Part shown: positions 21,741 to 34,897 of the stretch, piece by piece
Numbering within the stretch: position 1 is the stretch's first letter
Layout: every line of letters begins with the position of its first letter
Origin: Thermomicrobium sp. CFH 73360
Lineage (GTDB): Bacteria; Chloroflexota; Chloroflexia; Thermomicrobiales; Thermomicrobiaceae
Assembly (NCBI RefSeq): GCF_023806465.1
Contig: NZ_JAMSLS010000003.1
Coordinates: 248,001 to 312,000, forward strand
DNA: 64,000 bases
Direction: 5' to 3'
Position numbers and translations under genes: made by a program
Notes under the pieces: generated by a model
What the model saw: the letters and a program-made list of their open reading frames with translations, nothing else
Told to the model about the DNA's origin: nothing
Databases searched by the model: none

Positions 21741-22428
21741 TGCGCGCGTGGTCAAGCGGGAGGCAGCAGTGCGGGTCGGAAGCGCGGTGGTGGCCCCGCA
21801 GCCTTCCCCACACGACCGAATGGTGGCGTTGCAGCTCCTCGCAGAGGCGGAAGAGCGGGCTTCGGCAATCATCGCCGGAGCGGAGGCGGAAGCAGTGGCG
21901 ATCGTGGAGGCTGCGCAGCGGGAGGTCGAGACGCTCCGGCAGCAGCTGTGGGAGGCGGCGCTGGTCGAGGCCCGGGCGCAGCTTGAGCAGGGGTTGGCGG
22001 CTGAACAGCGGGAGCTCCTGACGAGGTTACGGGAACTGCTTGAGCGGGCAGTGCTGCGCGAGGAGGACGTGCGACAGGCGTACGTGCGGCTCGTTGTCGA
22101 GTTGGCAGTACTCGTCGCAGAGGCAGTGCTGCGTCGGGAGGTTGCTCGCGATGAAGCGCTGCTCGGGCGCCTCGTACAAGTGGCGCTGGAGCAGGCACCG
22201 AGTGCGCCGGTGACGCACTTGATCGTGCATCCAGAGGACGTCGAGCGGGCGCGGGAATGGGTGCGGCTGAGTTGGAACGGCCGGCCATCGGTGGAAGTGG
22301 TGGGCGACCCACACGTAGATCGCGGAAGTTGTGTTCTGGGAACCCCCGTCGGATTCGTCGACGCGCGGCTCTCGACACAACTTGCTGAACTCCGCCTCGC
22401 ACTCCTGGAGGTGGCGGATGAGTCCTGA
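21733..22428 (+). CDS. fliH: Flagellar assembly protein FliH
   Basis: About 231 residues from a TTG at 21733 that overlaps the end of fliG; GAGGAGG lies six bases upstream of it. A central helical stretch rich in Ala/Glu (LLAEAEERASAIIAGAEAEAVAIVEAAQREVETL) precedes the conserved C-terminal domain (VRQAYVRLVVELAVLVAEAVLRREV to GTPVGFVDARLSTQLAELR). FliH binds and restrains the FliI ATPase and docks it at the C ring. A GTG at 21715 is an alternative but lacks a separate site. The stop overlaps the fliI start by 11 bp. Confidence 0.9.
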   Translation: MASARVVKREAAVRVGSAVVAPQPSPHDRMVALQLLAEAEERASAIIAGAEAEAVAIVEAAQREVETLRQQLWEAALVEARAQLEQGLAAEQRELLTRLRELLERAVLREEDVRQAYVRLVVELAVLVAEAVLRREVARDEALLGRLVQVALEQAPSAPVTHLIVHPEDVERAREWVRLSWNGRPSVEVVGDPHVDRGSCVLGTPVGFVDARLSTQLAELRLALLEVADES

Positions 22429-23782
22429 GGCGCTCCTCGAACGCTTCCGGCAACGGGTGCGAACGGTGCAGCCGATCCGGCGCGAAGGGCGCGTGGTGCG
22501 CGGCATCGGGCTGACGGTGGAGGCGATCGGGCTCGACCTCGAGATTGGTGATTTGTGTCACATCTTTCCGACCTTCGCAGAGGAGGGGCGGCTGGCAGCT
22601 GAGGTGGTGGGATTTCATGACGAACGGCTGGTGCTGGTGCCGCTGGCCGAACTGCGCGGTGTCCGACATGGGAGCCGAGTGGTGCCGGCACCAGAGGCGC
22701 TGCACATACCGGTTGGGCCGGAGCTTTTGGGGCGCGTGGTCGACGGTCTGGGGCGGCCGATCGACGGGAAGGGGCCCTTACGCAGCCGGCGACGTGTGCG
22801 GCTGGGTGGCGCGCCACCGAGTCCGCTGCAACGGATGCCGATCCAGGAGATCCTGCCGACTGGCGTTCGGGCGATTGACGCCGCTCTGACCTGTGGCCGC
22901 GGGCAGCGGCTGGGAATCTTCGCTGGCTCGGGAGTAGGGAAGAGCACGTTGCTCGGAATGATTAGCCGCAAGGCCGTCTGCGATGTTCGGGTGATCGCGC
23001 TGATTGGTGAGCGTGGGCGCGAGGTTCAGGAATTCATTGAACGCGATCTCGGGCCGGAAGGGCTGCAGCGAGCAGTCGTCGTGGTCTCGACATCGGACCA
23101 ACCGGCGTTGCTCCGGATCAAGGCGGCCTGGACGGCAACCCTGCTTGCAGAGTACTTCCGCGACCGTGGGGCGAGCGTCGTGCTCATGATGGATTCGGTA
23201 ACACGCTTGGCGATGGCGCAGCGTGAAGTGGGGCTGGCGGCGGGGGAGCCGCCAGCGACCCGTGGGTATCCGCCATCGGTCTTTGCTTTGCTGCCACGGT
23301 TGCTCGAGCGAGCAGGGAACTCCGAGCGCGGAAGCATCACTGCGTTCTACACCGTGCTGGTGGAAGGGGACGATCTGAATGAGCCGATTGCCGACACGGT
23401 GCGCGGCATTCTGGACGGGCATATCGTGCTCTCGCGGGCATTGGCTGATCGGGGTCATTTCCCAGCAATCGATATCTTGGCGAGTGTGAGTCGGTTAATG
23501 CCCAACCTGGTGTCGGAGCGGCACCGGGCGCTGGCGGCGGAGGTACGCGAGCTACTGGCTGCGTACGAGAGCGCACGAGATCTCGTGGATATCGGTGCTT
23601 ACGTAAGCGGAACGAATCCCGCGGTCGACCGAGCGTTGGCGCTGTTACCGGAACTCCGACGGTTTCTGCAGCAGCGGCCGGAAGAGTGCACCACGTTTGA
23701 GGAGACGCTGGCCTGGCTTGAGAAGCTCCTCACCGGCAAGCCTATGGACAGCATCCGGTCGGTGGACATGCAGGTGGCATAG
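22418..23782 (+). CDS. fliI: Flagellum-specific ATP synthase FliI
   Basis: The protein has 454 residues from the ATG at 22418 (GGAGG upstream). It has the F1-beta-like fold with Walker A GIFAGSGVGKSTLLGMI, RGREVQEFIERDLG, the Walker B segment VVLMMDSVTRLAMAQREVGLAAGEPPATRGYPPS, and the FliI-type C-terminal helix bundle. It is the hexameric ATPase that energises and orders flagellar type III export. Length is normal. The start overlaps fliH and the stop is 13 bp before fliJ. Confidence 0.96.
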   Translation: MSPEALLERFRQRVRTVQPIRREGRVVRGIGLTVEAIGLDLEIGDLCHIFPTFAEEGRLAAEVVGFHDERLVLVPLAELRGVRHGSRVVPAPEALHIPVGPELLGRVVDGLGRPIDGKGPLRSRRRVRLGGAPPSPLQRMPIQEILPTGVRAIDAALTCGRGQRLGIFAGSGVGKSTLLGMISRKAVCDVRVIALIGERGREVQEFIERDLGPEGLQRAVVVVSTSDQPALLRIKAAWTATLLAEYFRDRGASVVLMMDSVTRLAMAQREVGLAAGEPPATRGYPPSVFALLPRLLERAGNSERGSITAFYTVLVEGDDLNEPIADTVRGILDGHIVLSRALADRGHFPAIDILASVSRLMPNLVSERHRALAAEVRELLAAYESARDLVDIGAYVSGTNPAVDRALALLPELRRFLQQRPEECTTFEETLAWLEKLLTGKPMDSIRSVDMQVA

Positions 23783-23795
23783 GGGGTCGGCGCGT

Positions 23796-24272
23796 ATGGT
23801 GCGGACCTTACGACAGCGGGCAGCACGGATGCAGCGGTTGCTGGAGTACCGCGAGCAGCTGGTTGAGGAGGCGCAGCGCCGCTTCGCAGAAGAGCAACGC
23901 TTCGTTGTGGCGTGCGAGACAGCGTTGGCTCAGCTCGAGGCGTCGCAGCGTGCATTAGCGGTGAGCCTCGCGACCCTGGCAGGAAAATCGGTGGATGCGA
24001 CGTTGCTGAGCGGTGCTGAGGCGTACCAGGCGTGGTTGTCGCAACGGCGAGACGAGCGTGAGGCCGCGCTTGCGGAGGCGAAGCGCCGGGCGGAGGTTGC
24101 ACGTGCGGCACTGGTGGCACAGCGTCGCGAGGCGAAGAAGGTGGAGCTCGTGCGGGCCCGCTGGCTGGGCGAGGTGCGGCGAGCCGAACGTGCGGCCGAG
24201 GCGAAGCTTCTTGACGAGATCGCGAACGGGCAAGCGGCACGGCGAACGCTTGGTGCGGAGCGGCTCGGATAG
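23796..24272 (+). CDS. fliJ: Flagellar export protein FliJ
   Basis: The protein has 158 residues, starting MVRTLRQRAARMQRLLEYREQLVEEAQRRFAEEQ and almost entirely alpha-helical coiled coil with high Arg/Glu/Ala content. This matches FliJ, the central stalk of the export ATPase. Sequence conservation in this family is low, so the call rests on position right after fliI and on the N-terminal RLLEYRE pattern. It is followed 8 bp later by the peptidase/transglycosylase fusion. Confidence 0.85.
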   Translation: MVRTLRQRAARMQRLLEYREQLVEEAQRRFAEEQRFVVACETALAQLEASQRALAVSLATLAGKSVDATLLSGAEAYQAWLSQRRDEREAALAEAKRRAEVARAALVAQRREAKKVELVRARWLGEVRRAERAAEAKLLDEIANGQAARRTLGAERLG

Positions 24273-24280
24273 GGGGCTGT

Positions 24281-25264
24281 ATGGCGGGGATCACAATCCC
24301 TTCAGAGATCTTGGCGACGATGCCGGCCCGGTTTGGCATCCGCTCACCACAGCTTGGAGGACCGACTGCGAACAACACCGAGTTCTGGGCGCTCTTGGCG
24401 CAGCGCGGCGTTGTAACGGATTCGCCGACGTCTGCTGGTCGCGATCCCTTGACCGATCTACGCGGTGTATGGCCCGTTCATGGGCCAGTGACATCGACCT
24501 TCGGGCCGCGATCGCTGCTCCCTGGCGAGCAGCTCCACACCGGCATTGACATTGGAGTTCCGGAGGGGACGCCGGTACGGGCGACGGCGAGCGGTGTCGT
24601 GCGGTTCGTCGGGAATACAGACGGGTATGGGCTGCGAGTTGAGATCGATCACGGGAACGGAGTAACCACGCTCTACGCGCACCTCAGCGAGGCGAGTGTG
24701 GTTCCCGGACAGCGGGTCGAGCGTGGCCAGACGATCGGTAAGTCGGGGAATACCGGAGCATCGACAGGGCCGCACCTCCACTATGAGATCCGGCAAAACG
24801 GACGGCCGATCGATCCGTGGTTGTCGCTGCAGGCGAGTGGACCGGCTGGTCGTGGTGGGCAGAGCGTGCTGAGTTTGCCGTTCGGGAACCTGATCGTTAC
24901 GACTGCGCAGCGCTACGGGCTCGATGCAGCGCTCTTGGCTGCAATGGTGAAGGTGGAGAGTGGTTTCGATCCCCGTGCGGTGTCACCGGCAGGGGCCAAG
25001 GGGCTGCTGCAGCTGATGGATGGGACAGCAGCAGCGCTCGGGGTGCGAGATCCGTTCGACCCGGCGCAGAACCTGGATGGTGGAGCGCGCTACTTCCGGG
25101 ATCTCCTGCAGCGGTTCGGCGGTGATGTGCGACTCGCGTTAGCTGCCTACAACGCAGGGCCGAATGCGGTGCGGGAGGCCGGCGGGATTCCGCCGTATCC
25201 AGAAACGCAGCGGTATGTGGAAGCGGTGATGGCGACCTGGCAGATGCTGAGCCGGGGGAGCTGA
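24281..25264 (+). CDS. M23 endopeptidase-lytic transglycosylase fusion in flagellar operon
   Basis: The 327-residue protein carries two peptidoglycan-cleaving domains. Residues about 65-185 form an M23/LytM peptidase with zinc ligands in HTGIDIGVPEGTPV (H86, D90) and GPHLHYEI (H165/H167). Residues about 200-325 form an SLT/Slt70-type transglycosylase with catalytic Glu226 in VKVESGFDP, then AGAKGLLQLM and AYNAGPNAV. No signal peptide or membrane helix is visible, as in FlgJ, so export through the flagellar type III system is likely. It would open the wall for the rod. All catalytic residues of both domains appear intact. Confidence 0.9.
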   Translation: MAGITIPSEILATMPARFGIRSPQLGGPTANNTEFWALLAQRGVVTDSPTSAGRDPLTDLRGVWPVHGPVTSTFGPRSLLPGEQLHTGIDIGVPEGTPVRATASGVVRFVGNTDGYGLRVEIDHGNGVTTLYAHLSEASVVPGQRVERGQTIGKSGNTGASTGPHLHYEIRQNGRPIDPWLSLQASGPAGRGGQSVLSLPFGNLIVTTAQRYGLDAALLAAMVKVESGFDPRAVSPAGAKGLLQLMDGTAAALGVRDPFDPAQNLDGGARYFRDLLQRFGGDVRLALAAYNAGPNAVREAGGIPPYPETQRYVEAVMATWQMLSRGS

Positions 25265-25274
25265 GGGGTGCGAC

Positions 25275-25691
25275 ATGGTGGGGACGGTCGATCCAATCGG
25301 CGTGCTCACGCGGGCACTTGACGCACTCGCGTTGCGGCAACAGGTGACAGCAAGCAACGTGGCTAATGCCGAAACACCGGGCTTCCGGGCACAGGCAGTG
25401 CGTTTCGAGGAGTTGCTTGAGTCGATGTTGACTGGCCGCTTCGCTCCGTTGCCGCTGGTACGGACAGACCCGCGACACATTGCGACGATGCCGGTTTCCG
25501 CAAGTGCGGTGCAGCCGCAAGTCGTCGAATTGACGGGAACGCGGTACCGCAACGACGGTAACAATGTGGATATCGAGCGGGAGATGGGGTTGCTCGCAGA
25601 GACAACGCTACGTTACAGCGCGCTGAGTGAAGTGCTGGCGCGGCGATTGGCGATGCTGCGTGCGATGGCGAGCGGTGGGCAAGGCGGCTGA
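25275..25691 (+). CDS. flgB: Flagellar basal-body rod protein FlgB
   Basis: The protein has 138 residues. The N-terminus (LTRALDALALRQQVTASNVANAETPGFRAQAVRFEELL) and the motif NDGNNVDIEREMGLLAETTLRYSALSEVLARRLAMLR are diagnostic for FlgB, a proximal rod subunit. GAGGGG precedes the ATG. It lies 7 kb downstream of flgC instead of directly in front of it as in most bacteria, next to the putative rod-penetration enzyme. Confidence 0.95.
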   Translation: MVGTVDPIGVLTRALDALALRQQVTASNVANAETPGFRAQAVRFEELLESMLTGRFAPLPLVRTDPRHIATMPVSASAVQPQVVELTGTRYRNDGNNVDIEREMGLLAETTLRYSALSEVLARRLAMLRAMASGGQGG

Positions 25692-25713
25692 CGCGGGATG
25701 AGGAGGTGCGCCG

Positions 25714-27120
25714 GTGGTCTTTCCAGTGGTCGGCCAGGGAACCGGAGGACAGGGGGTTGCCGGCCCTCCTGGATTGCTGAGAGCAGAGGGTGCTGTAGAT
25801 GCCTTCTTTGCACTGTTGGCTGCCCTTTTAAGCGAAAGTCAGTGGCCAAGTGGCGTACAGCAGGTGGTTGGCAACGAGGACTCAGCGTCCGTGCGAGCAC
25901 CAGTGCAGGACAAACGTGAAGTGGAGGGGGAAACGCCCGCATTGGCAGAGGCGCTCGCGATGCTGGGGGCTGGCCAAGGATGGCCGGCTGCCGTGCCCGG
26001 GCAACACGTGGAGCCGGGAGCGGCCGTGCCTCATGATGCAGAGGGTGAAGTGGCACGCGGGGTTCCGGTCGTCGAACAAGTGACCGCTCACCAAGGTGTG
26101 ATGCTGTCGGTGCCCAAGCGTGCCGATCAGCTGTCCAAGACGAGCTTGCCGGAGCCAGCAGGTGAGCAACTCCTCTCTGGGGCGTCGACTGCTGGTCATG
26201 CGGTGGTGGGCCGAGGGCAACCTCAAATGCAGGCTCAGCGAAGCCAGGCAAGTGCTCACGAGGGTCTGCTGATCAGTGACCTGACAGCGGTGCAGAGCAC
26301 GCTCGCGCCTGATGCTCCAGACGCTGGCGCAGGTGTTTCGGCGGCACAGCTTGATCACGGAGGACAGGTCGGGAGCAGGGCTCCTGCCACTCGTTTCCAG
26401 GGAGTCGTACCGCGGGAAATCGATGGAGGGGTGCAAGGGGTAGCGGTTGGGCAGCAGGTTCCAACAAAAGGATTGCCATCCGCATCAGTGCGTGGTGTCG
26501 CCAACGGTGAGAGCGTGACCACAACCGAGCATGCAGGGATCGCCGTGAAGAGCACTGCACACAGGGATTACGGGCATGGCGCGGCGGAAGGGGCCGAACT
26601 CGTCGGCTCTTTGTTGCCAATGAGAGGGGGCGTGGACCAAGCGACGGTGGAGCCTGGAGGTTGGGTTGAGCCGATAGCGCAGCTCGAAGAGCAGGTGCTG
26701 CAGGCACTGGAGCGGGGCGTGCGGCAGGTACGAGTGCGCTTGGAGCCACCGGAGCTCGGCGTGGTGGATGTGCGAGTGCGCGAAATCGGCGGGCGACTGG
26801 AGGTGACACTCGCCGCGGAGCACCCGGAGGTGCGGCAGGCGCTCGAACATGGACGCAACGGACTGCGCATGGCCTTGGCGGCGGGCGGGTTCAACGTGCA
26901 GCGGCTCGAGATTCAGTCGCTCACGGGGAGCAGTAGACAAGACCTGCTCGGTGGGGCGCCAGGTGGAAACGGGTGGGGCGGGGGTCAGCAGGGGACGGCT
27001 GGTGACCCTGGTTGGGCGCGGGACAACGCGATGGCCTCCCACCTGCCACCAAGGGAGGTTGCAGAGCAGGAGCGCCGTCGGAGTTTTCAGCCGGCCAGCC
27101 TTGTTGATACCTGGGCGTGA
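25714..27120 (+). CDS. fliK: Flagellar hook-length control protein FliK
   Basis: The protein has 468 residues, starting at a GTG behind GAGGAGGTGCGCCG. The first 300 residues are a variable, Gly/Ala/Gln-rich ruler segment. The C-terminal domain (about 315-395) has the FliK/Flg_hook signature: QVRVRLEPPELGVVDVRVREIGGRLEVTLAAEHPEVRQAL and NGLRMALAAGGFNVQRLEI. FliK measures hook length and switches export specificity through FlhB. It is located just before flgD and flgE, as in Bacillus. Confidence 0.92.
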   Translation: MVFPVVGQGTGGQGVAGPPGLLRAEGAVDAFFALLAALLSESQWPSGVQQVVGNEDSASVRAPVQDKREVEGETPALAEALAMLGAGQGWPAAVPGQHVEPGAAVPHDAEGEVARGVPVVEQVTAHQGVMLSVPKRADQLSKTSLPEPAGEQLLSGASTAGHAVVGRGQPQMQAQRSQASAHEGLLISDLTAVQSTLAPDAPDAGAGVSAAQLDHGGQVGSRAPATRFQGVVPREIDGGVQGVAVGQQVPTKGLPSASVRGVANGESVTTTEHAGIAVKSTAHRDYGHGAAEGAELVGSLLPMRGGVDQATVEPGGWVEPIAQLEEQVLQALERGVRQVRVRLEPPELGVVDVRVREIGGRLEVTLAAEHPEVRQALEHGRNGLRMALAAGGFNVQRLEIQSLTGSSRQDLLGGAPGGNGWGGGQQGTAGDPGWARDNAMASHLPPREVAEQERRRSFQPASLVDTWA

Positions 27121-27135
27121 GTGTGAGGTGCAGCG

Positions 27136-27579
27136 ATGAGTGTCAGCGGCATTGGTGGGAGCAGCGCAGGGAGTGGGATACCGGGGCAGGCAACTGGGGT
27201 CGGGAGCACTCCGGGAGGACGGCTCGACAAGCAAGCGTTTCTGATGCTGCTGGTGGCGCAGCTGAAGAACCAAGATCCGCTCAATCCGATGCAAGACCGT
27301 GAGTTCATCGCCCAGCTGGCCCAGCTGAACGCGCTCGAGCAGTTGCAACAACTGAACGAGACAGTGGCAGCACTGGCGCAGCATGCGGCACTGGGGCAGG
27401 TGGCGGGATACCTTGGAAAAGTCGTGAGCGGTCTTGAGCGGACGAGCCGTGAGCTGGTGAGCGGCACGGTGGTGCGGGCAACGATCCTGGACGGCGCGGC
27501 GGTGCTGGAACTGGAGCGTGGAGAGCGAGTGGATGTCCGGGATGTCGTGAGTATTGCCGTGGCAGAGGAGGAGCGGTGA
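27136..27579 (+). CDS. flgD: Flagellar hook-capping protein FlgD (short form)
   Basis: The protein has 147 residues. The conserved N-terminal half is clear: LDKQAFLMLLVAQLKNQDPLNPMQDREFIAQLAQLNALEQLQQLNETV. After it only a compact strand-rich tail of about 50 residues remains (SGTVVRATILDGAAVLELERGERVDVRDVVSI). The roughly 80-residue FlgD Ig-like domain found in longer FlgD proteins (about 220-230 aa) is absent. FlgD caps the growing hook and promotes FlgE assembly. Short FlgD forms are known in some lineages. Confidence 0.92.
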   Translation: MSVSGIGGSSAGSGIPGQATGVGSTPGGRLDKQAFLMLLVAQLKNQDPLNPMQDREFIAQLAQLNALEQLQQLNETVAALAQHAALGQVAGYLGKVVSGLERTSRELVSGTVVRATILDGAAVLELERGERVDVRDVVSIAVAEEER

Positions 27580-27700
27580 GGAACCAAGGATGGTGCGGAT
27601 GGTGTGCTGGGGGTCACGAAGAATCTGCGCCGCCGTCCCTGCCTGGCGAAATGTGAGAGGGCGTGATGACGGGTGATAAACCGACGAAGGGGGACGAACG

Positions 27701-28972
27701 ATGATGCGGTCGATGTTCTCAGCGATCTCGGGGTTGCGGGCTCACCAGACCTGGATGGATGTCATTGGCAACAACATCGCTAATGTGAACACGACCGGGT
27801 TCAAGGTTGGGCGAGTGCGCTTCACGGACATTCTCAGTCAGTTGGTGCGTGGGGCGAGTGGGCCAACTGAGCAGCGGGGCGGCATTAACCCGCTTCAGAT
27901 CGGGCTGGGTGCAGTGGTGGGAGCTGTCGACACGATCCACACGCAGGGAGCATTGCAACTGACGGGGAAGCCGAGCGACCTTGCGATCCAGGGAGACGGG
28001 TTTTTCGTGGTGAGTGACGGGTCACAGACGCTCTACACCCGGGACGGCGCTTTTGATATCGGGTCGGACCTGCGGCTCGTGAATCCTTCGAACGGGTTCT
28101 ATGTGCTGGGTTGGCCGGCGGATGCGAACGGGAATGTTGACACAGCGGGACCGGTGGGTCCGATCACCATCCCGATTGGCCAGCAGCTCGATGCCGTGCC
28201 ATCGACGCAGATCACCGTGCAGGGGAACTTGGACGCCAATCAGGATACGACAGCAACGCCACCGCATTATGTAACCAAGGTGAGCATTATTGACTCGCAG
28301 GGGAAGCGACACGAGTTTTACATCCTGTTTGAAAAGACCGGGCCGAATACGTGGGATTACACCATGCAGGAGGATGATCCACGCACCGCTGCTACGGAGG
28401 ACGACCCTGAATTTGCGCTGGGCGGGACGACGAGCGGAACGCTGGTCTTTGATGCAGACGGGAACCTCGATGCGGCTGCGTCCTCGATCGCGGCGGTTGA
28501 CTTGGATTCCAGTGGTGGCGGGGCAAGTGTGGTCAGCGTGACCCCGGACTTCAGTCGGCTGACGCAGCTTGCTGCTGCGTCCACGGCCAATGCGGCAGCG
28601 AATGGAGCTCCGGCTGGTTCGCTGACCACGTTCACTGTGAGCCAGTCGGGTGAGGTGCTGGGAATCTACTCCAATGGGGTCACCAAGGTGATTGGTCAGG
28701 TGGCGTTGGCGCTTTTTACCAATCCCGGTGGCCTGATGAAGGTGGGCGGAAATGCCTACTCGCCTACGGTCAACTCGGGTGAACCGATTATCGGCCCGGC
28801 TGACTCCGGTGGGCGCGGGAAGATTGCGAGCGGGTACTTGGAGATGTCCAACGTGGACCTGGCCCAAGAGTTTACCAGCATGATCATGGCACAGCGCGGC
28901 TTCCAGGCGAATTCGCGGGTCATCACAGCGAGCGACGAGGTTCTCCAAGAACTGGTCAATCTGCGACGGTAA
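27701..28972 (+). CDS. flgE: Flagellar hook protein FlgE
   Basis: The protein has 423 residues, with the axial-protein N-terminus (MFSAISGLRAHQTWMDVIGNNIANVNTTGFKVGRVRFTDIL), the SDLAIQGDGFFVVSDGSQTLYTRDGAF motif and the FlgE-type C-terminus (GYLEMSNVDLAQEFTSMIMAQRGFQANSRVITASDEVLQELVNLRR). The middle D1/D2 region is about 250 residues. Two consecutive ATG codons (27701, 27704) follow GGGGGA. It is the last flagellar gene in the window; 31 bp later a surface-protein gene starts, with no fliL, motA/B, fliM/N or export-gate genes in between. Confidence 0.95.
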   Translation: MMRSMFSAISGLRAHQTWMDVIGNNIANVNTTGFKVGRVRFTDILSQLVRGASGPTEQRGGINPLQIGLGAVVGAVDTIHTQGALQLTGKPSDLAIQGDGFFVVSDGSQTLYTRDGAFDIGSDLRLVNPSNGFYVLGWPADANGNVDTAGPVGPITIPIGQQLDAVPSTQITVQGNLDANQDTTATPPHYVTKVSIIDSQGKRHEFYILFEKTGPNTWDYTMQEDDPRTAATEDDPEFALGGTTSGTLVFDADGNLDAAASSIAAVDLDSSGGGASVVSVTPDFSRLTQLAAASTANAAANGAPAGSLTTFTVSQSGEVLGIYSNGVTKVIGQVALALFTNPGGLMKVGGNAYSPTVNSGEPIIGPADSGGRGKIASGYLEMSNVDLAQEFTSMIMAQRGFQANSRVITASDEVLQELVNLRR

Positions 28973-29003: not shown

Positions 29004-31730
29004 TTGAGGAAAAGGACCGGAAGACGGTACGCCGCGCGCGGGGGAAGGGTGAGTGTGGTGCGGTGGCCAGGGTGGCAAGTCATCCTCCTCGTGAGTTCGC
29101 TGGCGATGGCAGCGGGCGGGGGTGCGCTGTTGTTTGCGCCAGCAACTGGGGCCGCGGAAGTGGTGATCACCGTGACCAGCTCCGCAGATGGTACCGGGTC
29201 GTGTACAGGCTCGGGCACGAGCCGCACCTGTCCGACGCTGCGGGCGGCGGTGATCGAGGCAAACGGCCTTACCGACCCGGTGACCATTCAGCTCGGAACA
29301 GGGACATACCAGCTCTCCATTCCGCCAGCACCCGACGATACCACAGAGACAGGAGATCTCGACGTGACAAAGCGGGGCGGTGTTCTGCGAGTGCACGGAG
29401 AGGGGAGCAATCAGACGATCATTGCGGGTGCCTGGCCAGGAGAAGAGTCTGACCGACTCATCGACATCGGCAGTGGAGCGACGGTGGTTCTGGAGGGGCT
29501 CACGCTCATGGGGGGAGAAGCGAGTCACGAAGACACGCGCAACTTTGACGGTGGAGCAGTATGGGTCGGTGGGGTGTTGCAGTTGAGTGATGTGCAGTTT
29601 GTGAGCAACAGTGCACAAAAGCATGGTGGGGCCGTCTTTGTGGCGCCGAGTGGGACGATCGTCCTCGCGCCGGACGCAGGGCAGATCGTTTTTCTGGGGA
29701 ATCACACGGGAGCGAGTGGGGAGACGGCGGGGAACGGCGGGGCGCTGGCTGTGGCGGGGACGGTGATTCTCGACGGGACAGTGCGTCTCGTTGGGAATCA
29801 GGCCAGCGGTGTGGGCGGGGCGATCTGGGTGAAGGATGGGCGATTGGTGTTGGGGAGCCGAGTGAGCATCGGTGGTACAGGAGCAAGCGACCTCAACCAG
29901 GCAGGAGTCGATGGCGGTGGGGTGGCGGTCGAGGGTGGGCAGGTGGACCTGCAAGGGACACTGGTACAGGGGAACATCGTGGCAGGCCGTGAGGGGCGGG
30001 GCGGTGGTCTGTGGGTTGCGAAGGGACAGGTGACGCTCCGTACCGCGAGAGTGGTCGGTAACCGGGCGGGTTTGGGTGGTGGAATTGCAACTGATGAAGG
30101 GATTCTGACTCTGTTGGACACGGAAGTGCGCGAGAACGAAGCAATTCGGGATGGAGGAGGCTTGGTCATCCTCAGCCGAGGAAGCGGGCAGATTATCGGG
30201 GGGACGATTGCACGGAATACTGCGGTGGAAGGTGGTGGTGGCGGACTCTTCAATGCGGGGACGCTTGCTCTCTCGCGGACGGTAATCGAAGGGAATACCG
30301 CCGAGGCAGGGTCAGGCGGAGGGATTCTCAACAGTGGGACGCTTGACCTCAGTTCTCCGGAGACGGTGATTATCCGTGGCAACCGCGCTCGACTGGGGGG
30401 AGGCGTGGCAAGCGGTGGGACTGCGCGGTTACGGAGTCTCAGCGTGCAGAACAACGAAGCAACTCAGGATGGGGGAGGGGTCTGGAACAGCGGTGAGATG
30501 CTGTTGGATGGCGCAAGCATCGAAGGAAATCAGACCGGGAGCACTGGAGGCGGAATTTACCATACCGGAAATAAGACGTTGACGGTGCAAGGGAACAGTG
30601 TGGTGCGTGGCAATCAGGCCCCACTCGACGGTGGGGGGATTGCTGCATTTGGCAAGGTGGTCTTCACTGGTGCAACGATCGAGGGGAATCGGACAGGTGG
30701 TTCTGGTGGTGGTGTCCTCGCTGCGAATCAGGCGGAGTTCCGCAGTGTCCAGCTGATCGACAACCAGGCGGCGAACGACGGCGGCGGCATGCTCGTCGCG
30801 GAAGCCGGAAAGGTCACACTGGGCGATACGGCGATCCGTCGGAGCACGGCTGGCCAACTCGGTGGCGGGATCGCTGTGCGCAATGGGGGACAACTGGTGG
30901 CACAGGCGAGTTCGGTGACGGAGAACCAGGCGCTGTCGTACGGAGGTGGGATCGCCTCGCTCGGGTCGGTCGGCTTGACCAACGTGACGGTGAGCACCAA
31001 CGTGAGCCAGCAGCGGGGCGGTGGGCTCTGGATTGGGCCGCAGGGCAGCGTGACTCTGCAGTTCGTAACGATGGCCTCCAACGCTGCAGCAGCTGGTGGT
31101 GCACTCTACAACGACGGCGGCACTGTGACGTTGCGCGGTACGTTGATCGCGGCGAGCCCCGGCGGGGGGAACTGCGGGGGGATCGCGCCGAGCTCGCAGG
31201 GCAGCAACCTGGAAGACCGTGACAGCTGTCTTCTGCGGGGAAGCGGTGACCTGGTGAATGCTGCGCCGAATCTCCAGTCATTGCAGGTGGACTCGACCTA
31301 CGGCACGCTGTTCCATGCGCTTGGTTTGGGGAGTCCCGCGATCGATGCTGCGGGGACGCAGAATTGCCCAGCAGACGACCAATTGCACACGAAGCGTCCG
31401 CAGGGGACGGCCTGTGACATCGGTGCCTACGAGTACCCGGTACCCGAAGTCACTCCCGTGCCGTCAGCGGTCCCAACAGGCACACCGGGAACGACGCCGG
31501 TCGCGACGCCGCGCACAACCCCGACGGTAGGAGGGTCGCTTACCGGCCCGGCAACACCGGTTGTCGGTCGTGGTCCGACACCAACGCCGACCATCGGTTT
31601 ACCGAATACCGGTACAGCGGATCGTGGCAATAGTGTTCGATTGCTTGGACTCGGCCTGATCATGCTTGGCCTTACAGGAACGCTTGCCGGCGGTGTGGGG
31701 CTTCTCCGCCCCGGTCGGCGGGAGCAGTAA
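29004..31730 (+). CDS. Large beta-helix surface protein with LPXTG sorting signal
   Basis: About 908 residues from a TTG at 29004 (GAGGA upstream); a GTG at 29049 would also keep the signal peptide (ILLVSSLAMAAGGGALLFA). The first mature part has a CSLREA-like segment (CPTLRAAVIEANG). Residues about 150-760 are a long right-handed beta-helix of repeats with GGG-I/V turns and N-x-A pairs (for example EGNTAEAGSGGGILNSGTL), as in Pmp-like polymorphic proteins. A Thr/Pro-rich stalk follows, then LPNTG at about 866-870, a hydrophobic helix and a basic RPGRREQ tail: a complete sortase signal. The sortase gene is 15 bp downstream. Confidence 0.9.
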   Translation: MRKRTGRRYAARGGRVSVVRWPGWQVILLVSSLAMAAGGGALLFAPATGAAEVVITVTSSADGTGSCTGSGTSRTCPTLRAAVIEANGLTDPVTIQLGTGTYQLSIPPAPDDTTETGDLDVTKRGGVLRVHGEGSNQTIIAGAWPGEESDRLIDIGSGATVVLEGLTLMGGEASHEDTRNFDGGAVWVGGVLQLSDVQFVSNSAQKHGGAVFVAPSGTIVLAPDAGQIVFLGNHTGASGETAGNGGALAVAGTVILDGTVRLVGNQASGVGGAIWVKDGRLVLGSRVSIGGTGASDLNQAGVDGGGVAVEGGQVDLQGTLVQGNIVAGREGRGGGLWVAKGQVTLRTARVVGNRAGLGGGIATDEGILTLLDTEVRENEAIRDGGGLVILSRGSGQIIGGTIARNTAVEGGGGGLFNAGTLALSRTVIEGNTAEAGSGGGILNSGTLDLSSPETVIIRGNRARLGGGVASGGTARLRSLSVQNNEATQDGGGVWNSGEMLLDGASIEGNQTGSTGGGIYHTGNKTLTVQGNSVVRGNQAPLDGGGIAAFGKVVFTGATIEGNRTGGSGGGVLAANQAEFRSVQLIDNQAANDGGGMLVAEAGKVTLGDTAIRRSTAGQLGGGIAVRNGGQLVAQASSVTENQALSYGGGIASLGSVGLTNVTVSTNVSQQRGGGLWIGPQGSVTLQFVTMASNAAAAGGALYNDGGTVTLRGTLIAASPGGGNCGGIAPSSQGSNLEDRDSCLLRGSGDLVNAAPNLQSLQVDSTYGTLFHALGLGSPAIDAAGTQNCPADDQLHTKRPQGTACDIGAYEYPVPEVTPVPSAVPTGTPGTTPVATPRTTPTVGGSLTGPATPVVGRGPTPTPTIGLPNTGTADRGNSVRLLGLGLIMLGLTGTLAGGVGLLRPGRREQ

Positions 31731-31745
31731 GGTGTGGCGGAGTGA

Positions 31746-32435
31746 GTGGTGCGCTACGGGGCAAGCGTGGCGGTCCTGGTCTTGGCAGCATGGGTGCTCG
31801 GTGTGGGTGCAGGGTTTCTCGGAGCGCTCACGCTTGGTGACGACCGCGTGGTCCATCAGACGCCGTCGGTCCGTTCCGTAGAGCGCATTGCTCCAACCGT
31901 TGCACTGCCGATGGTAAGTCCGACGGCGGGACGCGAACCAACGCCTCTTCCCACACCAACGACGGTCCTCGCCTCGATCGCGCGGATTCGGATCCCGGCG
32001 ATCGGGGTCGATGCGTCTGTGGTCGTCAAAGGCCTCGATGCAGCGCGACGCATGGTGGCGCCTGACTCGCCGGAAGAGGTGGCCTGGTACGACTTCACGG
32101 CGTTGCCAGGGCAGGGGAGCAACATCGTCCTGGCGGGGCACGTTGACTTTGTGGGTGTTGGCCCGGCGGTGTTCTGGGATCTCTGGCGGCTACGCGTTGG
32201 AGATGTGGTGGAACTGGAGTTAGCGGACGGGAGTGTGGCTCGTTACCGGGTGGCCGGGCTGGAGACGGTGGAAGAGGTACGAGCCCCGGTCGAGCGCATC
32301 GTGGGGCCGACTCCGGAAGAGCGGCTCACCCTGATAACGTGTGCTGGCAACTACAACCCAGCAACGGGACGGTATGACCAGCGGCTAATTGTCACGGCGG
32401 TACCCATCGGCAGACTGGGATCGACGAGAGGGTGA
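31746..32435 (+). CDS. Sortase (class E/F-like)
   Basis: The protein has 229 residues from a GTG start. An N-terminal membrane helix (residues 7-30) and a Pro/Thr-rich linker (about 50-75) lead into the sortase domain. All three catalytic residues are present: His132 in VLAGHVDF, Cys199 in TLITCAGNY and Arg213 in YDQRLIV. It is predicted to sit extracellularly at the membrane, cleave LPXTG proteins between Thr and Gly and transfer them to an amine nucleophile. The adjacent LPNTG protein is the obvious substrate. The class assignment is by overall resemblance only. Confidence 0.93.
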   Translation: MVRYGASVAVLVLAAWVLGVGAGFLGALTLGDDRVVHQTPSVRSVERIAPTVALPMVSPTAGREPTPLPTPTTVLASIARIRIPAIGVDASVVVKGLDAARRMVAPDSPEEVAWYDFTALPGQGSNIVLAGHVDFVGVGPAVFWDLWRLRVGDVVELELADGSVARYRVAGLETVEEVRAPVERIVGPTPEERLTLITCAGNYNPATGRYDQRLIVTAVPIGRLGSTRG

Positions 32436-33967
32436 AGCGGCGCGTGGCAGATCATCGAACGCCGCTGTGGTCGTGGAGCGCTTGGGTGTGCGCAGCGTGA
32501 GGCGTTGTGCAGCACTGTGGCCAGGTTGGGAGAAGAAGGGGCCGGTGGATTCAGGAGCGAAGCGGTCCGCTGGTGTTGGGTGAATACCATTGCAGTAACC
32601 GAGTTCCGATGGAAACCGTGCTCGATCGAGTGACAGGGACCCGGAAGCTTTGCGGTTCGCCGCCGTGTCGAGCGGTGATGTGCGAGTGGCTGCTATTCCA
32701 GAGCGGTGTCCTGCTGTTCTACTGCGACGTGAGGAGCATCTCACGGGGTTGCGTTGCTGCCGTTGCAGGTGCAGGCGATTTCTCGGGCGGTACTATCCAC
32801 GCTCCTGACAAAGCAGGTGTGGAGTGTTCCATCAGGCGGCGACGTGAGCGCTATTCGCCGTACGCACCAGTGCCGTGATCGTCCACGGTGGTGTTTGACC
32901 CCCTGGTGGTGAAGTCTGGCTGCGAGGGCTGGAGCGGAAGCGCATGCCGGTCGGAAGAGTAGGTGGCGCTTGTTGGAAGGCCAGCTGACGGCACGTGAAA
33001 GAGCAATCCGCGCATTTCGTGGTCGTACTGACTCGAGCGCACAATACCTTGTAGCATGAGCGAACTACCACAAGGAAGAGGCGGTCTCCCCCCTTATCGA
33101 TATGACGACTGAGGGATGGTGAGCGTGCTCGGGTGGGGAGTACTCCGCGTCTCTCGAGGGAATATCGTTGCTGCAGACCTGGAGGAGCACCTCTGAGTCG
33201 TGTGGTGAGCGCGACGAGTTCTCCCTTGCGGGCGCCACAATCACCGCGAGCTCGAACGAGGCCACTGGTGGACACTGCACGGCTCGGGTGCGATTCACTC
33301 GTGACGTTCTACCAGTTGTGAGTCGCGGGGGCTACTTTCCCGCTTGGGTAGTACTGCGGTGCCCCTGCGAGGTATCGGAGCACTGATTGCTGGTGATGGT
33401 TCTTCAGGCGAAGTAGATGGGGTGTGTTGCGTTGTCCGCGTGGAAGTGCAGTTGGAGGATGATTGGAGTGTCACTCATCCTGCTGAGGTAGCCGTGCGAC
33501 GTCGGTCGTGAAGACCCTGTACCGTGACACACAACTGGCTCCGACAAGGTACGCCTTGGCTCCGTTGCTCACGAACGTTGGTCAGGGATGTCGCGAGCCG
33601 GAGACGGATCATCGACTCCAGCGTCTGACTACTAGGCTGAGGTGGATTGCGGGGGCCTGTCGGCGCGCGACACACGCGTCTGTCGAGAGGGTGAGAGGAA
33701 ACGTCGATGCTCTCATGCGTGGACCGGTGACACCTCGCTGGCGCGCAATTCGTTGGCAATCTGTCTTGGAACCGATGAAGGGATGGTGGCGCGTGAATGA
33801 GAGTGTTCCAGAGGAGAGGAGTCGGATACCCACTGGTCGGTCGCGCGACGGTCGGGGGAGTGGCAACTGCGCGGGTGGTCGCAGAGGCGAAGACTTGCAG
33901 GGGCGCTCAATGGTCCGGCATGATGAGCGGTGCACGGGGTGGAAGCGGTGAGAGGACTGGTGGAACC
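32436..33967. other. 1.5-kb gap downstream of the sortase
   Basis: The longest stretch in the window without a convincing gene. Open frames up to about 147 codons exist on both strands but overlap one another, lack ribosome binding sites and have implausible composition. No tRNA, hairpin terminator or mobile-element end was recognised. Confidence 0.5.
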
Positions 33968-34897
33968 GTGGGAGAACTGCCGACACTTGGATTCGTTGGG
34001 CTTGGGAACATGGGGCGCCCAATGGTGCTGCGCTTGTTGGAGGCCGGGTACCGGGTGCTGGTCAGTGACCGGCGATGGGACGTTGCGCAGGCACTGGAGC
34101 TCCACGGGGCGGAAGCGGTGCCGACGCCGCTGATAGTGGCGGATGAAGCGGATGTGTTTCTGACTTGTCTTCCAGGGGATGATGAGCTACTGGAGGTCTA
34201 CCTTGGCCCGGAGGGAGCGCTGGAGCATTTACGTCCCGGCGCGATGGTGATTGAACTGAGCACTGCTTCGCCCATGATGGTCCAGCGTATTGCCCAGGAG
34301 GGACGTTTACGGCAGATTGACGTAGTTGACGCCCCAGTCGGTGGTGGACCTCAAGAAGCGGCGACTGGAGCGCTGACAGTGATGGTTGGTGCCGATGCGG
34401 CAGTCTTCGAGCGCTCCTTGCCTATTCTGCAGGTTCTGGGAAGCGACATCTATCTTGTTGGTGATCCCGGTATGGGGAAAGTGGTGAAGCTTGTTAGCAA
34501 TCTTCTTACTGGGGTGAGTCTAGTGCTCATTGGGGAGGCGTTGGCACTAGCGGCGAATGCCGGTGCTGACCTGGCGCGAGTCTACGAGGTGATACGGTCC
34601 AGTAGTGGGGGCTGGAAACTCTGGAGTGAAGTCGTGCCTGAGCTACTGCGTGGTCCTCAGGAAGGGTTGTTTCGACTCGAGCTCATGAAGCGAGACATGG
34701 AATTGGCCATGCGACTGGGGAACGATGTTGGGTCCCCCGTGCCTCTCGCGGCGCTGGCACACCAGTTCTACGTCGCCGCGAGGGCGCGGGGATGGGGAGG
34801 GCTCGGCGCGCATGAGGTGGCACGCCTGGTCGGGCGGTTAGCGAACGTGCAGTTCAGCGTGAGTACCGGCGGTGGGGAACTCTTGGCGGCTGAGTGA
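33968..34897 (+). CDS. 3-hydroxyisobutyrate dehydrogenase-like NAD(P)-dependent oxidoreductase
   Basis: About 309 residues of the beta-hydroxyacid dehydrogenase family. The Rossmann motif LGFVGLGNMGRPMVLRLLEAGY lies at the N-terminus, followed by DVFLTCLPGDDELLEV, the substrate-site segment DAPVGGGPQEAATGALTVMVG, and the catalytic-lysine helix GMGKVVKLVSNLLTGVSLVLIGEAL. The family reduces or oxidises small 3-hydroxyacids or semialdehydes. The GTG at 33968 is where homology begins; upstream codons in the same frame do not look like protein. It is convergent with livF (3-bp gap). A link to branched-chain amino acid breakdown would fit the neighbouring liv operon but is inference. Confidence 0.88.
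   Translation: MGELPTLGFVGLGNMGRPMVLRLLEAGYRVLVSDRRWDVAQALELHGAEAVPTPLIVADEADVFLTCLPGDDELLEVYLGPEGALEHLRPGAMVIELSTASPMMVQRIAQEGRLRQIDVVDAPVGGGPQEAATGALTVMVGADAAVFERSLPILQVLGSDIYLVGDPGMGKVVKLVSNLLTGVSLVLIGEALALAANAGADLARVYEVIRSSSGGWKLWSEVVPELLRGPQEGLFRLELMKRDMELAMRLGNDVGSPVPLAALAHQFYVAARARGWGGLGAHEVARLVGRLANVQFSVSTGGGELLAAE

Follow-up and report, generated by a model that had tools for sequence, protein, structure and literature searches.

What does a gene for a predicted wall-anchored surface protein, followed directly by a sortase gene, do behind the hook gene of a flagellar operon? The question is raised by a hot-spring bacterium, Thermomicrobium sp. CFH 73360, in which flgE, a gene for a beta-helix protein with an LPXTG sorting signal and a sortase gene follow one another on the forward strand of a 64,000-nucleotide stretch of contig NZ_JAMSLS010000003.1 (positions 248,001 to 312,000; here called the window). 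All window features described below lie on this strand. Judged from their sequences, the last two genes very likely encode a sortase and its LPXTG substrate, and a flagellar role of the pair appears likely. We regard the pair as linked to the flagellar gene set, physically and probably also in function, and as a branch of a wider arrangement in the Chloroflexota, with a probability of about 0.6. The enrichment of sortases near flagellar genes across this phylum is a stronger result than the adjacency of the pair itself. Gene content, gene order, conservation, the sorting motif, the catalytic residues and the enrichment near flagellar genes are the results established here.

The sortase and its predicted substrate

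The flgE gene (27701-28972), identified by Pfam and NCBIfam matches, ends at 28972, and the open reading frame (ORF) of the beta-helix protein (29004..31730) begins after a gap of 31 bp with a TTG codon at 29004, giving a protein of 908 amino acids. The start codon is uncertain, as the orthologue in Thermomicrobium roseum, TRD_RS12080, is annotated from a GTG equivalent to window position 29058; with this start, the gap to flgE becomes 85 bp and the protein 890 amino acids in length, so that the 31-bp spacing named in the original prediction holds for the TTG codon. The stop at 31730 is separated by 15 bp from the GTG start of the sortase gene at 31746.

The predicted signal peptide (29058..29156 from the GTG start) has its hydrophobic maximum of 2.16 at residue 26, and the N-terminus is conserved in relatives. 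A right-handed beta-helix then spans residues about 50-780 (29151..31343), modelled by AlphaFold with a predicted local distance difference test score (pLDDT) mostly above 90 and containing Chlam_PMP repeats (PF02415; 29.9 bits against a cut-off of 20.6). It is followed by a choice-of-anchor Q domain (residues 767-811, 31302..31436; NF041518, 60.6 bits against a cut-off of 25), and the position of the LPXTG signal behind this domain agrees with the definition of choice-of-anchor Q proteins. A disordered stalk rich in Thr and Pro (residues 811-865, 31434..31598), recognized from its sequence and a pLDDT below 50, leads to the LPNTG sorting motif (residues 866-870, 31599..31613), and LPXTG is retained in orthologues. 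The remainder of the sorting signal (31638..31727) is made up of a hydrophobic helix, with a Kyte-Doolittle maximum of 1.85, and a basic tail, RPGRREQ, and is without counterpart in two Sphaerobacter-type orthologues. The signal peptide, stalk, motif, helix and tail are thus as originally described, while the modelled beta-helix is longer than the approximately 600 residues first assigned to it.

Among the 305 window ORFs of 100 amino acids or more in six frames, this is the sole case of a complete sorting signal comprising LPXTG, a hydrophobic helix and a basic tail. The Gram_pos_anchor model (PF00746) gave nothing above its cut-off in the whole genome; a second evident LPXTG protein of the genome likewise escapes this short model, which was dropped as an insensitive whole-genome detector of sorting signals and replaced by a pattern scan of individual loci. 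The sequence of the beta-helix protein matches no solved structure at E<=0.01. In structural comparison, polysaccharide lyases, pertactin, Ag43 and tail proteins were matched only weakly and in part (best E 1.2e-3), and no function was deduced from them.

The sortase (31746..32435) is a protein of 229 amino acids with an N-terminal membrane helix. Its sortase domain (PF04203) is matched with E=2.5e-23 and 82.6 bits against a curated cut-off of 26.6, and its structure model matches solved sortases with E down to 6.7e-10. The best NCBIfam match is to the class F model NF033748 (E=6.7e-33), with 113.5 bits lying below the cut-off of 166; the enzyme is hence termed class F-like, and its T. roseum orthologue, TRD_RS12075, is annotated as a class F sortase. 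The expectation of an intact enzyme 15 bp downstream was confirmed, since the codons of the catalytic residues His132 (32139..32141), Cys199 within the motif TLITC (32340..32342) and Arg213 (32382..32384) are found as predicted and the three residues are invariant in 13 orthologues.

Sortases in flagellar clusters across the Chloroflexota

Of 400 sampled Chloroflexota genomes, 41 contain FlgE. Sortases, FliD and FlhA were located in flagellated genomes, and 97 sortases in 35 genomes entered the count. Seventeen of them are no more than 5 kb away from flgE, fliD or flhA, as compared with 0.67 expected from genome size if sortases are uniformly placed. With the family of the window excluded, 14 such sortases remain against 0.60 expected, and 8/16 families, which are not fully independent of one another, have a flagellum-near sortase against 0.58 expected. 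Two arrangements recur, with the sortase either behind fliD or near flgE, and in one genome (G073) it lies inside the operon. On the T. roseum megaplasmid, the order is fliD-fliS-fliT-sortase, with a 3-bp gap before the sortase. Many of the fliD-type sortases have lipobox-like N-termini, and in a tree of 132 sequences they form one clade with a support of 0.994.

The genome of the window has three sortases. The second (L052:9340-10014 (-), G000:C34) lies directly behind fliD-fliS-fliT and adjoins chemotaxis genes, so that, together with the window enzyme beside flgE, two of the three are in flagellar clusters. This second sortase has a lipobox-like N-terminus, and sortases of lipoprotein type appear unusual. 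The third (L051:8889-10106 (+), G000:C23) is not near flagellar genes yet falls inside the fliD-type clade.

Scanning of flagellar loci for sorting signals revealed a further family of LPXTG proteins, whose genes lie between fliA and flgF. These proteins have about 200-270 amino acids and contain an RskA_C-like domain (Pfam matches with E as low as 5e-10). The order fliA-LPXTG-flgF occurs in nine families (f1, f20, f36, f49, f50, f62, f63, f68 and f72). The member in the genome of the window (L181:13984-14679 (-), G000:C23) overlaps flgF by 4 bp, and the T. roseum member, TRD_RS09470, is annotated as 'hypothetical protein'. Homologues share a mean pairwise identity of 36 %, and LPXTG is retained in 23/23 complete ones; because they were aligned only up to the motif, its invariance is taken from this count and not from the alignment. 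In families f45 and f60, a beta-propeller (YncE-like) LPXTG protein is encoded near a flgE-linked sortase (L167, L169, L170 and L171 in f60, L172 in f45), so that the substrate in this setting has another architecture. By family, eight have both an LPXTG gene in the cluster and a sortase near flgE or fliD, three have LPXTG alone, three have neither and none has a sortase alone, a co-occurrence that is borderline (Fisher p = 0.055) in a test omitting f23 and families with unread regions.

Taken with the window, the recurrence of sortase and target genes in the flagellar clusters of relatives suggests that flagella are connected with wall-anchored proteins in a way not yet described. In this arrangement, the sortase gene of a flagellar cluster would follow fliD-fliS-fliT or lie close to flgE, and the gene for the LPXTG protein would mostly be placed between fliA and flgF. 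It is conceivable, though we hold it to be doubtful in this strong form, that Chloroflexota possess flagellum-dedicated sortases, and that these covalently attach to the wall flagellum-associated proteins, namely the RskA_C-like protein encoded between fliA and flgF and, depending on the lineage, beta-helix or beta-propeller proteins. Such fixed proteins could act as a collar or anchor for the flagellum of a one-membrane cell lacking P- and L-rings.

Conservation of the pair within the family

Counted in contiguous, readable assemblies (G002 and G005 are broken by contig ends), the order of flgE, beta-helix LPXTG gene and sortase gene is found in every such genome of the same genus (G001, G004, G006), in four of a second genus (G008, G013, G016, G018) and in one of a third (G009). 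The megaplasmid of T. roseum DSM 5159 has the same order as TRD_RS12085-12080-12075. The beta-helix orthologues are 38-90 % identical to the window protein, and complete sorting signals are retained in those of the three genera and of T. roseum. The pair is present in the flagellated genera of the family (g1-g4), while the aflagellate genera g5 and g6 have neither flgE nor the linked protein, with a single distant beta-helix match in G014. Very short FlgE-like proteins of about 267-269 amino acids, apparently without the middle hook domain, are encoded at the flgE position in G009 (L136:11160-11950) and G025 (L135:11107-11916).

Conservation of this order had been proposed as a test of the flagellar connection. 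The linkage is indeed conserved, but it cannot by itself show a common function, as the gene for a 3-hydroxyisobutyrate-dehydrogenase-like (HIBADH) protein and the livFGMHK genes, all downstream of the pair, are likewise conserved in order in these genomes. Conservation that continues into unrelated metabolic genes makes adjacency within these genera weak evidence of joint function, and it was rejected as proof; the adjacency could be inherited block synteny. On this ground the pair may be a bystander, that is, a working sortase and substrate with a general surface role that lie at the end of a flagellar operon and have been kept there because rearrangement is slow, an explanation that is possible but less probable than a flagellar tie. 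It is also favoured by Sphaerobacter-type genomes, in which flgE is the final flagellar gene of its cluster. Further observations weigh against a flagellar tie. T. roseum (PMC2615216) and Sphaerobacter (PMC3035262) are reported to be non-motile, and the flagellated Sphaerobacter-type genome G015 keeps the sortase at the far edge of the flagellar island without a beta-helix gene. The window sortase falls outside the fliD-type clade, in another clade of the tree of 132 sequences, and the flagellated families f16, f30 and f48 have neither a sortase nor an LPXTG gene in the flagellar regions read. In Actinoplanes, sporangium formation and spore release showed no phenotype when four class F sortases were deleted (PMC13251363).

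The Sphaerobacter-type rearrangement speaks for the flagellar tie. In the REARRANGEMENT test, the pair of G007 was found 37 kb from flgE, at the far edge of the flagellar island. A first reading of this distance as a loss of linkage was wrong, as the intervening DNA is one contiguous island of flgE, fliF, fliE, flgC, fliD, fliC, flgK, flgF/G, flhF, flhA, flhB, fliR, fliP, motA, motB, fliL, fliM and fliN (several genes being named from sequence, without a family search), with the pair at its opposite edge, convergent to and adjoining fliM-fliN. The sortase and beta-helix genes are thus still paired after the rearrangement, and in either known arrangement the pair lies at a border of the flagellar island, which argues against a bystander, as do the presence of the pair in step with flagella within the family and the clustering of sortases with flagellar genes far above chance elsewhere in the phylum. 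Additionally, no promoter-like or terminator-like sites were found between 27000 and 33737, which counts in favour of the tie; RNA data exist for T. roseum (PMC6776052). The originally proposed flagellum-linked role is accordingly supported in part: it gains from the phylum-wide occurrence of sortase and LPXTG genes in flagellar clusters and loses from a local order conserved well past the pair.

The cell envelope and the wall acceptor

LPXTG sorting had been described as a Gram-positive trait, with the acceptor in Thermomicrobium-like cells an open question. The trait is not confined to classical Gram-positive bacteria, as sortase homologues occur in 58/61 genomes searched within the genus, family and order; the genome of the window has no Omp85 and no FlgI, which fits a one-membrane cell without a P-ring. 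The acceptor is also less open than was held, because T. roseum contains peptidoglycan in small amounts that are nevertheless essential, has a standard pathway for it and is sensitive to penicillin (PMC2615216), and the murein of Sphaerobacter is of type A3beta with ornithine and beta-alanine (PMC3035262). Furthermore, Tepidiforma, another member of the Chloroflexota, is described with flagellar motility, peptidoglycan and an S-layer, in a paper that makes no mention of sortases (PMC10284905).

We infer co-expression of the pair and the sorting and wall attachment of the beta-helix protein. Export by Sec, retention in the membrane, cleavage of LPNT/G and transfer to the wall would follow from established sortase biology. 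The beta-helix protein would be exported by Sec and retained by its C-terminal helix; the sortase would then cut between Thr869 and Gly870 and join the protein to peptidoglycan or lipid II, probably at an ornithine/beta-alanine bridge such as that known from Sphaerobacter. The outcome would be a stiff rod, estimated at roughly 14 nm and built of about 30 turns of beta-helix, displayed on a flexible stalk. The most probable role of the protein is that of a surface component fixed to the wall and produced along with the flagellum, and the evidence does not separate a possible role as a collar around the flagellum from one as an adhesin deployed with it.

The claim that the substrate is dedicated to its sortase was not borne out, as the genome also has at least one further LPXTG protein and two further sortases. 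The window enzyme could instead be a shared or housekeeping sortase with several LPXTG clients, including the fliA-flgF protein, and the beta-helix protein one of them. A genome with three sortases and at least two LPXTG proteins is in line with this tentative alternative, as are families f20 and f62, which have the fliA-flgF LPXTG gene and no sortase next to the flagellar markers tested; against it stand the 15-bp spacing of the two window genes and the survival of the pair through the rearrangement.

That the beta-helix protein is released or loosely attached, its sorting signal being dispensable, is improbable given full sorting signals in three genera and T. roseum, even though the Sphaerobacter-type orthologues of G007 and G012 stop one residue after LPNTGG and have neither the hydrophobic helix nor the basic tail. 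These tail-less orthologues (L044:10432-12945 (-) and L045:10755 (-)) are shared by two species. Most improbable is that the protein is the dominant 75-kDa wall protein of T. roseum, which is rich in Gly, Pro, Glu and Ala and was not matched to a gene in the genome paper (PMC2615216): a predicted mature mass of about 80 kDa, 19.7 % Gly and 9.9 % Ala would suit, but with 3.9 % Pro and 8.1 % Glu plus Gln the composition does not fit, and the identification was rejected.

Relation to known systems

Sortases have known roles in wall anchoring, pili, spores and haem uptake. In the open-access literature we found no description of a linkage between sortases and flagellar operons, including fliD, the basal body and the Thermomicrobia, and its novelty is provisional. 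The window enzyme has the same catalytic residues as the class F sortases of Actinobacteria, namely the housekeeping enzyme of Propionibacterium acnes and SrtF1-4 of Actinoplanes missouriensis, but differs in scoring under the class F cut-off and in its position at a flagellar operon. The class F genes of A. missouriensis lie at separate loci and are without known phenotype (PMC13251363).

Three comparisons concern the beta-helix protein and its setting. The Pmp proteins of Chlamydia are autotransporters of two-membrane cells. The window protein shares with them and with choice-of-anchor Q proteins the NF041518 and PF02415 matches above cut-off, but no C-terminal autotransporter barrel was detected in it, the sorting signal standing there instead, and no Omp85 is encoded in the genome. 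PfbA of Streptococcus pneumoniae is anchored via LPXTG and has no known flagellar context. In both proteins a beta-helix domain belongs to a wall-attached surface protein, as predicted from sequence for the window protein and as described for PfbA (PMC3718772). The likeness to the P-ring and L-ring bushings FlgI and FlgH is an analogy of gene position, as envelope-fixed proteins are encoded beside rod and hook genes; there is no homology.

If the link is true, part of the flagellum or its surroundings would be covalently tied to the wall in a large phylum. That would be relevant to the question of how a rotating motor is held in cells that have one membrane and a thin or unusual wall. Class F-like sortases would also gain a first physiological role.

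Neighbouring genes

No tRNA was found in the window. Downstream of the pair, the HIBADH-like gene (33797..34897), assigned by Pfam and kept in place across three genera, is an unrelated neighbour that served as a synteny control outside the system. Upstream, the flagellar genes fliI, fliJ, a gene for an M23/SLT wall hydrolase, flgB, fliK, flgD and flgE occupy 22331..28972. FliI, the M23/SLT protein, FliK, FlgD and FlgE were identified by Pfam and NCBIfam matches, and fliJ and flgB from their place in the cluster and their resemblance to annotated T. roseum genes; the same order is found in the annotated T. roseum record. The hydrolase of this operon (24281-25264) is a fusion of an M23 peptidase and an SLT transglycosylase, and it probably serves in wall penetration.

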